A stretch of DNA of 64,000 bases, taken from Asticcacaulis biprosthecium C19. GTDB lineage: Bacteria; Pseudomonadota; Alphaproteobacteria; Caulobacterales; Caulobacteraceae. Shown piece after piece: positions 5,940-37,920 of the stretch. Each line of letters opens with the position of its first letter. The stretch's first letter is position 1. The notes below the pieces were generated by a model, which saw only the letters and a list, made by a program, of their open reading frames with translations, made no database searches and was not told the DNA's origin. The DNA lies in NCBI RefSeq assembly GCF_000204015.1, contig NZ_GL883077.1:1820188-1884187 (forward strand), written 5' to 3'. A program made the position numbers and the translations under genes.

Positions 5940-6413
5940 TTATTCCGTTCGGACGGCAATTGTATCTATTTCTGCGACCATTTCGGGAAGATATAGGCGA
6001 TCAATTTGGATCCAGGTCGCTGCCGGGTATTTACCATTTCCATAGAATGATTTGCGCGCAGGAATTTGCTCCTTGAATGCATCTATGTCTTTTGTATATA
6101 CGGTTTCTTTTACTATATTTTCTGGCTTTAGATTTAACTTATCCAATATTACTTTGAGTTGACTGTAGCAGTCAGGAATCGCCTTGGCATAAGTCTCGCC
6201 ACTGCAGGCTACGCCAGAAAGATAGACTACGCCATTCACCTCTACCACTTGAGTATAGCCATTAACTTCCTCCCACGGTGGGTTCATTTCGTGGCGGGTA
6301 ATCGATGCCTTTTCAGGAGGTTTGCAGGCGGTGAGGCCGGACAAGACTATGGTTGCCGCCAAGGTTCCAAAAAGGAATTTTGGATGGGAATTGTGGGATC
6401 GAGGGATGCGCAT
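5940..6413 (-). CDS. RidA/YjgF-like lipoprotein, AT-rich
   Basis: 157 residues from ATG 6413 (MRIPRSHNSHPKF), with GGAG six bases upstream. A lipoprotein signal ends in the lipobox LSGLTAC, with the acylated Cys near residue 30. The mature part follows the RidA (YER057c/UK114) fold: VEVNGVVYLSGVAC, DCYSQLKVILDKLNLKPENIVKETVYTKD (split here only by reading), and a C-terminal ATWIQIDRLYLPEMVAEIDTIA. Cytoplasmic RidA deaminates reactive enamines using a conserved Arg near the C-terminus; that Arg position reads ATWIQID here, so activity is doubtful. Base composition is markedly AT-rich compared with neighbours, suggesting acquisition by transfer. Confidence 0.8.
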   Translation of the reverse strand: MRIPRSHNSHPKFLFGTLAATIVLSGLTACKPPEKASITRHEMNPPWEEVNGYTQVVEVNGVVYLSGVACSGETYAKAIPDCYSQLKVILDKLNLKPENIVKETVYTKDIDAFKEQIPARKSFYGNGKYPAATWIQIDRLYLPEMVAEIDTIAVRTE

Positions 6414-6703
6414 TGCAAACTCCAAGTTTAAAGGTGAAAAAGTATCAAATTCAACCAATGAATTCGCTTCAATGCGCGACTAGCACTCGATTAACAGTAA
6501 AATAGATCGGCTTTCCGTTAATGAGCAGACTCATAGTCCCCGCGACAAGCTCTTTTACACTGGAGTTAAACACCCGGCGGCCATTTTTAATGCGACGCGA
6601 CAAAATGTCGCCTTCGCGGAACTTTGCAGACGCAGGTCTGCGTTCGTTTCTATTATCCGCCAGTTCCCATTTGAGTGTTCGATGACAGTCGGTTAACCGT
6701 AAG

Positions 6704-6949
6704 CTAGCCCGCTGTAGGTGCGTTGTGAAGCCCAACTGCGAGTGAATAGGCTTGTTTTCGGCGGACCAGGGCGCGGTCCTTTTCGACGATGCTCATGATC
6801 TTAACGTCACCGCGTTTGAGATTGCCGAACAGCCAGTGGAGATGGTCGTGCGACAGGCCGACCACGCCGATCGGCATCGGATCTTTCGCCTGGGCCGGGG
6901 CGGCGAAGGCGAACAGCATCGCGATGAAGAGGCGGAGCCTGGCCAGCAT
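6704..6949 (-). pseudogene. Truncated second copy of the Gfo/Idh/MocA gene 5' end
   Basis: From the ATG at 6949 the frame reads MLARLRLFIAMLFAFA, then a signal peptide, then IGVVGLSHDHLHWLFGNLKR and VEKDRAL, closely matching the first ~65 residues of the 4373-5467 gene. Similarity stops near 6765 and the frame ends in unrelated sequence at 6704. The leader upstream of the ATG is also similar (shared ACTATGCG block and GGGAG ribosome site). It is the remnant of a duplicated gene and cannot make a folded enzyme. Confidence 0.85.
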
Positions 6950-7071
6950 GTCGTTTTCTCTCCCAAGTGTTTTAGCGTATTTTGGTAGGACTATGCGCGC
7001 ATCAGCAGCTATTACAAGCTCAGGGCTTGATGACCATAGCCAGTCCATCCCTAACGTTTGCAGCCTGTTAA

Positions 7072-33443: not shown

Positions 33444-33746
33444 TAGGGACTTAACTGACTGAAAATGGGAGGATCGTCGACCTAACGGCCATGACGCGGC
33501 TTCGCGCAGGCCTGTACAGGAGCACAGCCAGTTAGGGAAGGGCAAGCCTTGCAGTCATTTCGCCAGACGGAGCGGAAGGCAAATGAGCCTCAGCTTATCC
33601 AAGATCGCCATTCCGTCGGTAGGCCGTCATTATACGCGCGTCACTTTCGGCCCGAGGTCAGATCAATGCTGTGAAACGACCACGCATTTCAACACCTGTT
33701 CATGAAGTATGCGCGGCGGACGATGAGTTGAGTTCCTTTTGATGTT
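33444..33746. other. Intergenic region, nothing recognised
   Basis: About 300 bp between the ABC-F start and the end of the SHOCT-like gene. The left part should hold the ABC-F promoter. GC content drops toward the right, marking the edge of the AT-rich island. No gene, repeat or structured RNA stands out. Confidence 0.5.
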
Positions 33747-34814
33747 CTATTCATCGTCACGGCCATCACAAAAAACCTTGTAGTCCACGACAACTGGATC
33801 ATCTGATTCCCCCTGCGTAATAATAGAAAGTTTCGCCACCCCTCCTTTAGCCTGGAGAGTAAAGAAACAGTACGCGTAACCCGTTCCGGAGCAACTGTCC
33901 AGTTCTGGAAATCGCAGAGGATCTACTTGCGCATCATCACCAACAAATCTTTCCTTCGTGCCTGGTGGTGCTTTCCATCCCGAATTTCCCAGCAATTCCC
34001 GGGCTTTCGAAAACGTCTGACCAAATACGACCGGCACATTGTATTCCCCGCCACAGACCACGTCACTTCCTGTGATTTTATCAAATGTAAGACTATGATT
34101 TTTGAGACTAATTTGGCCAACAGGAATGACATCATCCGAAACTCGCAGATGGTCACCGACAATTTCTATATTGTTTATTCCGATTGCGTTTTTCCCCTTA
34201 CCATATAAGACACCAATCAGTTGACCACCGTCGAAAAATGCCAAATTCGCATCTTTAGTGAAGCAATGCCCACTGGTGCCTGGATCGTAACCGCGAATTA
34301 TAAATACAGAGTCCAGCCGTTGAAACGCCTCCTCTTTTACTACGCGCCACCCTTGTTGCTGTGCTATTTTTCCGCCGGGCGTCTGAGCTTTATATTGATC
34401 GGGATCACCGCAATAGTTATCCGCATCGCCGTCATATGACTTAACGGCGGGCAACTGCTGCAGACGTACGAGACTCGCACCGGCAACATTGGAACGAAGG
34501 GCATATTCCTTTGGCTGCGGCGATTCCGCACCAGCGACTGAGAAACTCGTTTTCCAGTTCGTATGTGACAAGGATAAGACTAGCCATGAGAGCAATACAA
34601 GAAAGCCAGCGGCCCCAGCAATTAAGGCAAACGGTGTTGAGTTCTGGCGCTTTGCGGTGAGGCGGGAAGCCAAATCTGTCACTGTAATCTGCGACTTTTC
34701 GTCGGGACTATCCGTTTCAAGAATTCGTCGTTTTTGCGCCGCAAATTCTTCGTCTGAGAGAAGCCCTTCGGCGTGAAGTTTGCCCACACGTTCTAGCTCA
34801 TCCCAGCGCTTCAT
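33747..34814 (-). CDS. SHOCT-like membrane protein with exported C-terminal domain, AT-rich
   Basis: 355 residues from ATG 34814 (MKRWDELERVGKLHAEGL), with GGGG upstream. Residues about 3-35 form a short SHOCT-type helical module (LHAEGLLSDEEFAAQKRRIL). One membrane helix follows at about 62-85 (ALIAGAAGFLVLLSWLVLSL). The C-terminal ~260 residues would face the periplasm and contain several Cys (DNYCGD, GHCFTKD, VVCGGEYN, DSCSGTGYAYC, KVFCDG). No enzyme motif. Base composition is AT-rich compared with the flanks, like the reverse transcriptase gene next to it. The role is unknown. Confidence 0.78.
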   Translation of the reverse strand: MKRWDELERVGKLHAEGLLSDEEFAAQKRRILETDSPDEKSQITVTDLASRLTAKRQNSTPFALIAGAAGFLVLLSWLVLSLSHTNWKTSFSVAGAESPQPKEYALRSNVAGASLVRLQQLPAVKSYDGDADNYCGDPDQYKAQTPGGKIAQQQGWRVVKEEAFQRLDSVFIIRGYDPGTSGHCFTKDANLAFFDGGQLIGVLYGKGKNAIGINNIEIVGDHLRVSDDVIPVGQISLKNHSLTFDKITGSDVVCGGEYNVPVVFGQTFSKARELLGNSGWKAPPGTKERFVGDDAQVDPLRFPELDSCSGTGYAYCFFTLQAKGGVAKLSIITQGESDDPVVVDYKVFCDGRDDE

Positions 34815-35146
34815 TGACAATTCCCCTATCAGAGCCCGGTCGCTCTCCGCTTAAGGGAAGATAGACCGAGATCCAGTCTTAGGGAAGACTTAGGAATTGC
34901 AGGAATTTCGGGGAATGGCTTAGTCGATTTATTCTTTCAATTATCTGTTGCGGCCAGCTGGGTGGTCGAACAAGAGGGAGGAATCAAGTCTGTAGTCTAC
35001 GCTGATTTGGATATCACCGTTGGACCTCCTCGCCGCCGACCAACTGAAGGCAAAAGAAATCTGCAGTGTACTCAAAATCTCCAGCAGTGCATTGCCGAAT
35101 TATCTACTCGTTAGCCATTGCCCAGCATCCGTCGAAATCCAGACAA
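34815..35146. other. Gap between SHOCT-like and reverse transcriptase genes
   Basis: AT-rich to mixed sequence. A small perfect hairpin AGTCTT-AGGG-AAGACT lies near 34875-34890. On the plus strand, codons at about 35023-35100 read LLAADQLKAKEICSVL then KISSSALPNYL, reminiscent of a recombinase helix-turn-helix, but the frame is short. No convincing gene or structured RNA. Confidence 0.4.
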
Positions 35147-36775
35147 CTAGAACGGCTCGCGATCTTCAAAGTGATCATGACCTAGAGCGTCGTAGCTCTG
35201 CCTGTCATCTTCGTCTTCGTTGTTGTCATATCCATATCTAGTACGACTGATCGCGCGTCGATTTTCTTCTTTTACATGTACAATATGCTCACCAAAGTCT
35301 AACAACTTGATATGGCGACCAGCCAGATGTGAGAATTCTTCAGCATAGAGGCCAGAAAATGACGCTCCGGAAAAGCCCTGTGATCGCGCTACAAGGTTCA
35401 CAAGCCAACCGGAATCCACGGTCGATAAGCCAGAGCCCAGAGATAACTTTGGCCGCCGCTTGATTTTTCCGTCTACATGCGCCTGAACAAGAAGTGCACG
35501 AACATGTGCGTTACGATATTTGGATAATTCTTCTATCATCGCGGGTGGTATGTCTATTTCGCATATTATTAATAGCCAAAGCATCCACAAAAGTTCATGG
35601 TCGTGATTAAGTGCAAGGCACTTTCGGATAATAATCTCGGCGACGGCCTGCCAACCCTCTAAGTCGATAGGTTCACCTAACGCCTTCCGTTTGGCAACAA
35701 GAAGGCAAGCATAATCAATTGCGTGAGGATGTTTTTGAATTATTCTTTGAATGTTTTGTTCGACAAAACCCCAATGAAACGAACGATAAACGCGCCCTTC
35801 GTCAAATGCCCTGAAAAGAATTTTCACGGGGCTATCTGAACCAATCTCCCTCGCGTATGTGACGGCTTCAGTAATTGCCCGTTCAATTTTTTCAGGGCGT
35901 ATGGCAAATCCGAAAAAACCCATATGGTCTCTAAGTCTTTGAGCCCATAGGTCGTTGATAGGTTCCAAACTGGAAAGAATTTTTGTTTTTTGATCATTAA
36001 GATTTAGCTCATATGTGGCTAATACATCCCTCAGATAAGACAGAACCGATTGTGCTTCATGCTCCGTTCGGAGTCCTATGTAATAGTCATCCACATGGCG
36101 AACGGCCCCTACGATCAAATGCCCGACCGCCTGCTTAAGCTCTGTGTCGAGTTTTGCTAGTACAAATTCAGCGATTAATCTATAAGCATCTGGCCCCACC
36201 AGAACACCTCTAGTGTTGCCGCGTTGACCATTCCGCACAAAAAAATCTAATGCATTAAAGAAATTTGCCTCAGAACTTCTATCTGTATCTGATTTCGAAG
36301 ATTCAATACCATGCATCGACCAAGCAATAGAATGAGTGTAAAGACTTGGAAAACACTGAGCTATGTCCGCTTTAAGGACAAATGGAGCAAATCTTAGATT
36401 TTTTGAAGCGCGTTTCGACAGTTCGGAGAGCGATGGAACCTTAACTGCTCTCTCGTCGCTTTCGCCCATGAGCATCGGCGCACCGATTGAGTATTCAGAA
36501 CGGGCATAATTCGATTCAAAGTGCTTCCAGTTCTTCCAGACGAAGCTCGATATGTAGAAATATGAAATTATGTTTGGCGTGCCGAAGAAGCGCCGACTCC
36601 CGTCATGCTTTGTACCGCTGTATCGAACATATTCGGTTTTTCTTTCATGAAACTGATTGTCGTCTAACTTTCCAACAATGCCATGAAATGCGCGCTTAGC
36701 ATCCTTAGACACAAAGCATGGGGGAAGCGTTTCGGGATATAGGCCTAAGTTGATAAGCGTAAATCGAGTCTTCAT
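35147..36775 (-). CDS. Reverse transcriptase of the Abi/DRT (defence-associated) type
   Basis: 542 residues, ATG 36775. The RT palm is clear: motif A FVLKADIAQCFPSLYTHSI with Asp near 137; motif B NTRGVLVGPDAYRLIAEF (about 187-204); motif C AVRHVDDYYIG with catalytic Asp-Asp near 229-230; then NLNDQKTKI. About 240 mostly helical residues follow. There is no maturase, HNH or integrase domain, and the retron motifs are not evident. The YTHSI and GxxxGPD pattern is the kind I associate with abortive-infection and unknown-group RTs used in phage defence. The gene is AT-rich compared with flanking DNA, has its own promoter (36797-36825) and sits in a small island. Subgroup not assignable without a tree. 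Confidence 0.88.
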   Translation of the reverse strand: MKTRFTLINLGLYPETLPPCFVSKDAKRAFHGIVGKLDDNQFHERKTEYVRYSGTKHDGSRRFFGTPNIISYFYISSFVWKNWKHFESNYARSEYSIGAPMLMGESDERAVKVPSLSELSKRASKNLRFAPFVLKADIAQCFPSLYTHSIAWSMHGIESSKSDTDRSSEANFFNALDFFVRNGQRGNTRGVLVGPDAYRLIAEFVLAKLDTELKQAVGHLIVGAVRHVDDYYIGLRTEHEAQSVLSYLRDVLATYELNLNDQKTKILSSLEPINDLWAQRLRDHMGFFGFAIRPEKIERAITEAVTYAREIGSDSPVKILFRAFDEGRVYRSFHWGFVEQNIQRIIQKHPHAIDYACLLVAKRKALGEPIDLEGWQAVAEIIIRKCLALNHDHELLWMLWLLIICEIDIPPAMIEELSKYRNAHVRALLVQAHVDGKIKRRPKLSLGSGLSTVDSGWLVNLVARSQGFSGASFSGLYAEEFSHLAGRHIKLLDFGEHIVHVKEENRRAISRTRYGYDNNEDEDDRQSYDALGHDHFEDREPF

Positions 36776-36796
36776 GGTTAGAGCATAACGGGAAAT

Positions 36797-36825
36797 TTGA
36801 TATTTTCACAACCCTAAAAGGTCAA
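36797..36825 (-). promoter_or_regulatory. Promoter of the reverse transcriptase gene
   Basis: On the minus strand TTGACC (36820-36825) and TATCAA (36797-36802) are separated by exactly 17 bp. Transcription would start about 10-15 bp before the ATG, leaving a very short leader without a clear ribosome site. Confidence 0.6.
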
Positions 36826-36960
36826 TCGTGGAGCTGGCAATCATTAGCTTGAGCCCATTGTTTACCCATAGCAAAGGCACCGGTGTCACTTTGGTTTTCG
36901 TCAATGCGCCATTCCCGAACCTGTCAGATATGGGTCCAGACAACCGCTACACGCCAGCCC

Positions 36961-37920
36961 CTATTTCCCACGCGGACTGAGCCACCCCTCCGACGTCATC
37001 CAGTCGATGATGGCGCCTTGCCAGTCGTCACGCGGCAGCAGCGGAAAGCCATGCTCTCCCTTGGCAAACAACCGCGCCTCGGCCGGCACGCCGGCATGAC
37101 GTAGCGCCTGGAAATAGACGATGGCGTTGTCGACATCGACCAGGGTGTCGTCGGCAGCGTGCAGGATCAGGGCCGGCGGCGTCTGGGCCGTGACCTGCTT
37201 TTCGTTGGAAAATTCAGCGACCTTGTCTGGTGAAGGTGACATCCCCAGAAGCCCTTCGCGCGATCCCATGTGCGTGATCTTGGCGTCCATGCTGATCACC
37301 GGATAGACCAGAACCTGGAAGTCGGGACGCAGACTCAGCGAATCCGGATTGGCAACATAGGCCGTGTCGAAATGCGTGGCCAAGGTAGCCGCGAGATGTC
37401 CGCCCGCCGAAAAACCGACCACACCGACGCGGGCCGGATCGAGGTTCCATTCGGCAGCATGTTGCCGAACGAAGCGCAGCCCGGCTTGCGCATCCTGAAT
37501 CGGCCCGATCGACGGGGCCTGCATGGTCGCAGCACTCGGCAGCCGGTACTTCAGCACGATGGCAGCAATGCCGTGATCGACGAAGTACCTGGCCTGCTCG
37601 ACGCCCTCATATTCAAAGGTGAGGCCGGCATAGCCTCCGCCCGGAATGATCAGAACGCTGGCGCCTGTGGCCTTCGCCCTGGCCGGCAGATAGACTTGCA
37701 ACATCGGCCGCGACACCTGCTGTACCCATCCCGTGCCCGTGCCCTTTTCGGTGTCCGGACCCGGCTTGGAATTGGGAATGGCGCCGTCGCCATACAGGGC
37801 AAAGCTTTGCATCTTGGCCGGGAACATGGCGTCGCGATCCGGCTCGGCCGCCATCGCCGGCAGGGCGAACAACGCCGCCGCAACCATCAGACACACAGAC
37901 CTCAATCCCATTAGCTTCAT
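36961..37920 (-). CDS. Exported alpha/beta hydrolase, esterase type
   Basis: 319 residues with a Sec signal (cleavage after AMA, about 24). The alpha/beta hydrolase elements are ASVLIIPGGGYAGLTFEYEG (oxyanion region), the nucleophile elbow GVVGFSAGGHLAA, the acid in LHAADDTLVDVDN and the His in AKGEHGFPLL. Such HGG-type enzymes next to polysaccharide genes are often acetylxylan or carbohydrate esterases, and the sequence fits that group. Its ATG overlaps (ATGA) the stop of a fossil molybdopterin oxidoreductase frame. It precedes the reverse transcriptase island on the same strand. Confidence 0.9.
   Translation of the reverse strand: MKLMGLRSVCLMVAAALFALPAMAAEPDRDAMFPAKMQSFALYGDGAIPNSKPGPDTEKGTGTGWVQQVSRPMLQVYLPARAKATGASVLIIPGGGYAGLTFEYEGVEQARYFVDHGIAAIVLKYRLPSAATMQAPSIGPIQDAQAGLRFVRQHAAEWNLDPARVGVVGFSAGGHLAATLATHFDTAYVANPDSLSLRPDFQVLVYPVISMDAKITHMGSREGLLGMSPSPDKVAEFSNEKQVTAQTPPALILHAADDTLVDVDNAIVYFQALRHAGVPAEARLFAKGEHGFPLLPRDDWQGAIIDWMTSEGWLSPRGK

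Follow-up and report, generated by a model that had tools for sequence, protein, structure and literature searches.

DRT4 is a single-gene system that makes random ssDNA without a template, and phage ORF55 shields the 3′ end of that ssDNA, which then accumulates; one of the two papers that report this describes DRT4 as tyrosine primed (PMC13213688, PMC13314766). In the available text of the same papers, DRT6 is homologous to DRT4 and is likewise activated by ORF55, but its product chemistry is less resolved and is called unresolved there, hence its interest. According to the accessible portions of other reports, AbiK primes with Tyr44 and Abi-P2 needs Tyr61, both in the fingers loop (PMC9508834), AbiA primes with Tyr298/303 (PMC11077055), and DRT1 primes with Ser402 (PMC13275509). 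The primer lies near the C-terminal end in DRT3b (Tyr666; PMC13174585), probably in the C-terminal tail in DRT9 (Tyr496/498; PMC12483538), and at the C-terminus in DRT10 (Ser456 or likely Tyr444; PMC12632851). No DRT6 priming residue is named in the available parts of PMC13213688 or PMC13314766, and closed literature may name one.

We analyzed a reverse transcriptase (RT) gene in a 64,000-nucleotide stretch of the Asticcacaulis biprosthecium C19 genome, hereafter the window. The profile and the fold that best match the protein are both those of DRT6. This RT probably belongs to the class 1 defense RTs of group DRT6 (UG12) and works as a single-gene anti-phage system, a role deduced from its relatives. 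What is new here is a conserved block in the C-terminal tail, AISRTRYGYD, a candidate lead on where DRT6 primes.

The reverse transcriptase and its family

The gene and its catalytic codons are as follows.

35147..36775, minus strand: DRT6-type reverse transcriptase gene, 542 aa (open reading frame, profile, Pfam, model and fold evidence)
36365..36367, minus strand: Asp137 codon (motif A), the residue being identical in all 16 rows of alignment A2
36086..36091, minus strand: Asp229-Asp230 codons (motif C, VDDYY), both residues being identical in all 16 rows of alignment A2

The reading frame (36775-35147) is intact, with an ATG start and no internal stop. Motif A, LKADIAQCFPSLYTHS, contains D137, the codon position of which was computed from the start of the frame and then read in the sequence; motif B is TRGVLVGPDAYRLIAE, and motif C, VRHVDDYYIG, contains D229-D230. 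The catalytic residues are identical in 12 sequences, the window RT and 11 relatives at 48-75% identity. Pfam, searched to E 1, gave RVT_1 as its sole match (31.8 bits against a cut-off of 29.6). An AlphaFold2 model built from the 16 rows of alignment A2 had a mean pLDDT of 82.1 and a pTM of 0.83, and the domain borders were taken from its secondary structure: an RT-like domain (residues ~1-275), a helical, alphaRep-like domain (~276-507) and a tail (508-542), with residues 276-514 mostly helix plus three short strands. The GC content of the gene is 0.446, versus 0.597 for the remainder of the surrounding 12 kb, and the RT gene has a lower GC content than its flanks in all 13 DRT6 loci compared. 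The initial annotation of a stand-alone, AT-rich Abi/DRT-type RT that carries motifs A to C and the Asp-Asp pair but no maturase or nuclease domain is thus borne out by D137 and D229-D230, by RVT_1 alone in Pfam, by the base composition and by an AbiK-like helical domain in the fold search. The ~240 helical residues that it placed after the RT motifs were also correct, since the model is mostly helix over 276-514.

Among PADLOC profiles Drt6, which we take to be UG12, came first by about 200 bits (467 bits, E 1.6e-140, residues 2-525 on profile positions 2-510 of 511), followed by the best Drt4 profile (268 bits), AbiK (127) and Abi-P2 (96). The RT scored 181 bits on NCBIfam Drt4 (NF041749; 450 required), 44 of the 300 bits required by the group II intron RT model TIGR04416 and 20 of the 235 required by the retron RT model retron_St85. 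A sequence search of solved structures returned 9wy8 first (E 1.2e-36) and DRT4/UG15 chains next (E 3.1e-22). Foldseek against the PDB also ranked 9wy8_A first, an entry titled hexameric DRT6 (E 2.8e-22, 22% identity; TM 0.78 by query and 0.85 by target), with UG15/DRT4 at ~0.70, AbiK and Abi-P2 at up to 0.56 and group II and retron RTs at ~0.3 by query. The first reading of the sequence could name no subgroup and considered an undescribed clade; the full-length Drt6 profile match and the 9wy8 fold match rule this out, and the RT is an ordinary member of an already described kind. A group II intron or retron RT, the case named beforehand as counting against a defense RT, was rejected on the low maturase and retron model scores and the TM of ~0.3 by query. 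DRT4 identity was also set aside on the NCBIfam score, though the tree alone allows a join to DRT4.

Applied to 21 of the 31 DRT6-side rows described below (all but L006-L011, L013, L015, L016 and L048), the Drt6 profile gave 370-617 bits. Among the comparison rows, which were scanned except for L004, it gave 279-292 bits for four DRT4 rows, 162 and 180 for two Abi-P2 rows and 143 and 154 for two Drt3b rows, and no match to the Drt3b row L054 at a limit of 1e-40. The PADLOC names Drt4 and Drt6 seem mixed, because the solved DRT6 piece (9wy8) reached 678 bits on PDLC02179 versus 559 on Drt6, the viral rows L168-L171 scored highest on PDLC02179 and L050 did so on PDLC02177, both profiles being named Drt4.

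Like the window RT, DRT6 (UG12, 9wy8) has a two-domain fold, an aromatic-Asp motif in a long acidic tail and, according to the accessible parts of reviews, a single gene; unlike it, 9wy8 is only ~22% identical and falls outside the deep alphaproteobacterial lineage of the window. DRT4 (UG15; 9vdo, 9l9s, 21ou) shares the class 1 fold with a helical domain, the single gene and, in our alignments, the same catalytic residues, but a tail tyrosine is absent from all four of its rows in which the C-terminus is visible, two of which lack a tail. AbiK and Abi-P2 also combine an RT-like with a helical domain and lack a thumb, but they have weaker profile scores and, in the available descriptions, primers in the fingers loop.

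Trees were built without UG14, UG30, UG31, AbiK, group II intron or retron rows; L017 and L049, whose open frames run to only 181 and 349 aa, and loci matching in the RT core only were left out of alignments and trees. A search for UG30 rows matched 4 of 299 genomes at 1e-40, all of them the window, L019, L020 and L021. With 34 rows, the window fell in a 13-row alphaproteobacterial clade (support 100/100), which formed 17 rows with L002, L078, L079 and L080 (97/94), within a 24-row DRT6 side that includes 9wy8 (89/95). With 42 rows, the 17-row clade was recovered (100/96) and a branch with support 79/95.7 set the 31 DRT6-side rows apart from the others. Approximately unbiased (AU) tests on the 42 rows allowed the window lineage to join the 9wy8 clade alone (p-AU 0.418; absent from the best tree) and did not reject its join to DRT4 (p-AU 0.279). 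As far as these alignments go, the 13-row lineage is sure and its deeper joins are not sure, that to the solved DRT6 appearing moderately supported. On this reading of the trees, the window RT belongs to a deep lineage of alphaproteobacterial sequences that falls on the DRT6 side. The named hosts of the 13 rows represent nine families (Caulobacteraceae, Erythrobacteraceae, Sphingomonadaceae, Aestuariispiraceae, Phyllobacteriaceae, Roseobacteraceae, Aurantimonadaceae, Paracoccaceae and Rhizobiaceae), a further row is a viral contig, and the gene has probably passed between hosts.

A stand-alone gene in a variable slot

The RT gene shares a variable segment with one other gene.

33541..36953, strand not applicable: variable segment of 3.4 kb, in place of which the nearest relative carries 4.35 kb of different DNA
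33747..34820, minus strand: second gene of this segment, encoding a 357-aa SHOCT-domain protein (Pfam SHOCT, 30.9 bits)

The nearest of 24 same-genus genomes (G007) was chosen by the two genes flanking the segment, which keep their order there at 89% DNA identity and are the sole matches between the window and that genome in the stretch compared. Its version of the slot (L155, contig C4, 4183-8358) encodes an ApeA-type protein, with PF18862 at 55.4 bits and PF18739 at 30.5 bits, both above cut-off, together with a nucleotidyltransferase (PF12281) and a 248-aa frame whose HTH match is below threshold. The locus comparison suggested at the outset thus found the RT segment absent from the slot in the sister species and an ApeA-type gene in its place. 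Conservation at the same site with chromosomal GC content, which had been named as evidence against the defense reading, was not what we found. With DRT6 in this species and an ApeA-type gene in its sister, the slot is a clean, small case of defense-gene swapping at a chromosomal site.

The RT gene is stand-alone. No partner is evident, because its relatives have neither a neighbor gene nor flanking DNA in common: no frame of at least 80 aa was common at E 1e-6 to the 13 DRT6 loci, in a frame set verified to contain the 13 RTs themselves. The SHOCT gene had no PADLOC match, and as a partner of the RT it is unsupported, no neighbor frame being common to these loci. Flanking DNA of the 13 loci yielded nothing beyond chance, either in plus-strand BLAST over up to 1,500 nt per side or in k-mer counts over 400 nt against simple shuffles; L006, L012 and L013 had one-sided short flanks, and the matches were a 125-nt repeat pair within L006 and a single 35-nt stretch shared by L008 and L013. 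Rfam gave no match over 33500-37100. A class 2 DRT templated by a noncoding RNA was rejected, no adjacent conserved noncoding RNA being found in these flanks or with Rfam, searches that speak to a conserved adjacent RNA and not to a relative-specific or in-gene one. The private promoter proposed initially was not recovered: a sigma-70-like scan of 34800-37000 found none between 36776 and 36960, and its total of 4 is at the level of shuffles (mean 3.3, sd 1.8).

Four of 60 relatives of the window's genome had any match at E 0.001: one is 30% identical over residues 8-527 (G018), another 24% over 8-468 (G033), and two match in the RT core only, namely L005 of G020, which is Drt3b, and L004 of G016, which falls with Drt3b rows in the tree. 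Of 385 genomes sampled across the class, 5, including that of the window, exceeded 300 bits on the 13-row alignment. A family search in 398 genomes matched 90, mostly through short RT-core pieces, with 3 reaching 400 bits. One scan of genome contigs gave 12 loci at 45-77% identity to the RT, L017 being a piece only, and a DNA similarity search with L050 found no Escherichia coli copy.

Neighbor scans covered 16 of 63 listed neighbor frames, picked by eye. In a viral contig (L048, 243-9574), the DRT6 gene has phage terminase on one side and capsid/portal genes on the other. The RT gene adjoins a relaxase and ArdC in L015, AbiEii-like and Fic-like genes in L012, and an integrase-core transposase in L006, where the 125-nt direct repeat (78% alike) surrounds it, ~440-310 bases before and 125-250 after. 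PADLOC on 10 neighbor frames left 7 unmatched and gave a weak Cas3c match in L007 and two matches in L012. Elsewhere in the window, a further GC dip lies at 6001-7000 (0.496, versus 0.55-0.66 over most of the window).

The C-terminal tail and a candidate priming residue

By analogy with its relatives, the window RT would use its helical domain to assemble as a trimer or hexamer, and D137, D229 and D230 would add dNTPs without a nucleic-acid template. It would prime on a hydroxyl residue of its own, with Y516 in AISRTRYGYD as the candidate, and protein-bound ssDNA would accumulate during infection and stop the cell or the phage. Phage-triggered, template-free ssDNA synthesis by this RT is likely; we infer the oligomer, the template-free synthesis, the protein priming, the phage trigger and the toxicity from relatives. 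Two features of the tail matter here.

35225..35254, minus strand: conserved block AISRTRYGYD, residues 508-517, with candidate priming Y516 (column conservation)
35150..35224, minus strand: variable acidic tail, residues 518-542, pLDDT below 50 (model and alignment)

Mean column conservation in the 17-row clade is 0.84 over residues 508-517, compared with 0.42 over 490-507 and 0.30 over 518-542. Y516 and D517 are invariant (17/17), and the Y514 position holds Tyr in 13. Over the 31 DRT6-side rows, the Y516 column has Tyr in 20 (17 of them in the window's clade), Phe in 7, including the solved DRT6, and another residue in 4; the 14 rows outside the clade, with 3 Tyr, 7 Phe and 4 others, need long gaps to align. 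A tyrosine occurs somewhere in the tail in 30 of the 31 rows. Tyrosine makes up ~3% of residues in proteins, so that in tails of 33-110 residues chance gives most of this count; the case for Y516 therefore rests on its fixed position in 17 of 17 rows. The remaining row, L099 from Azospirillum brasilense plasmid p1, has no tail Tyr and carries His at the Y516 column.

The tail motif is RYGYDN in the window and RYGYDD in most of its relatives, versus FDFDDMDEEYFDS in 9wy8, as taken from an alignment print that stops short of the last residue. MAFFT placed a Phe of 9wy8 at the Y516 column, and HMMER set the column one residue later, on Asp; seven residues beyond this Phe there is a Tyr. DRT3b, and probably DRT9, prime DNA on C-terminal tyrosines, as proposed here for Y516, and the DRT9 peptide end NYDYE is similar in look to RYGYDD; however, DRT9 requires RNA and DRT3b teams with a second RT that uses RNA, and no such partner was seen here (PMC12483538, PMC13174585, available text). 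From column conservation, Y516 is a candidate priming tyrosine to which we give a little less than an even chance. More tentatively, and clearly short of even, the lineage may be a distinct DRT6 variant that primes on Y516 of a disordered acidic tail and carries its ssDNA on a mobile tether, without RNA, a nearby tail Tyr (EEYFDS) serving in the solved DRT6. If so, tail priming would be the common design and the fingers-loop tyrosine of AbiK the exception. An invariant tail Tyr in a small single-gene lineage offers a handle on the DRT6 priming site.

A serious competitor, though on balance we doubt it, keeps the same family and moves the primer to Y52 of the fingers loop or to a Ser/Thr. Y52 lies roughly in the region of AbiK Tyr44 and Abi-P2 Tyr61, both fingers-loop residues in the accessible account (PMC9508834). 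It is present in 13 of 13 rows of the window lineage and in 3 of 4 sister rows, but among the 31 DRT6-side rows 11 have Phe and one has Leu in its column, so that a hydroxyl at this position is not generally needed; as a general DRT6 primer Y52 was rejected for the same substitutions. The Ser/Thr version has a precedent in DRT1, which primes on Ser402 according to the available text (PMC13275509).

It is unlikely, but consistent with part of the data, that the aromatic-acidic tail acts instead as an autoinhibitory DNA mimic in the DNA channel or as a partner-docking peptide, in some members with an SSB-tip-like end. The aromatic residue followed by Asp/Glu is kept more widely across the group than Tyr itself. 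Of the 30 DRT6-side tails whose end is visible, seven have a terminal Phe and four or more acidic residues in the last 10 (the window, 35150-35170, with the end EDREPF, and L006, L016, L048, L078, L079 and L080), and 23 lack a terminal Phe; the rows are related and the counts not independent. Among background frames, a small set that contains unverified ones, 1 of 121 has an acidic Phe end and 7 of 121 any Phe end. The SSB paralog of the window's genome (L162) ends in DLDDEIPF, a reading taken from this paralog and not from the main SSB (L161). The resemblance of the acidic, Phe-ended tails to SSB tips may be chance among relatives.

That the RT gene is a horizontally acquired, idle relic or has a non-defense function is very improbable: the sigma-70-like scan shows no upstream promoter-like site, but the frame is open, the window RT and 11 relatives at 48-75% identity agree in their catalytic residues, and an ApeA-type gene occupies the same slot in the sister species.

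The window's genome encodes two more RTs, a Drt5 (667 bits; contig C2, 1628305-1628685, L164) and a retron type III-A RT (349 bits; contig C5, 306358-306918, L163), the latter adjoined by a gene weakly like WH_III-A (22 bits).
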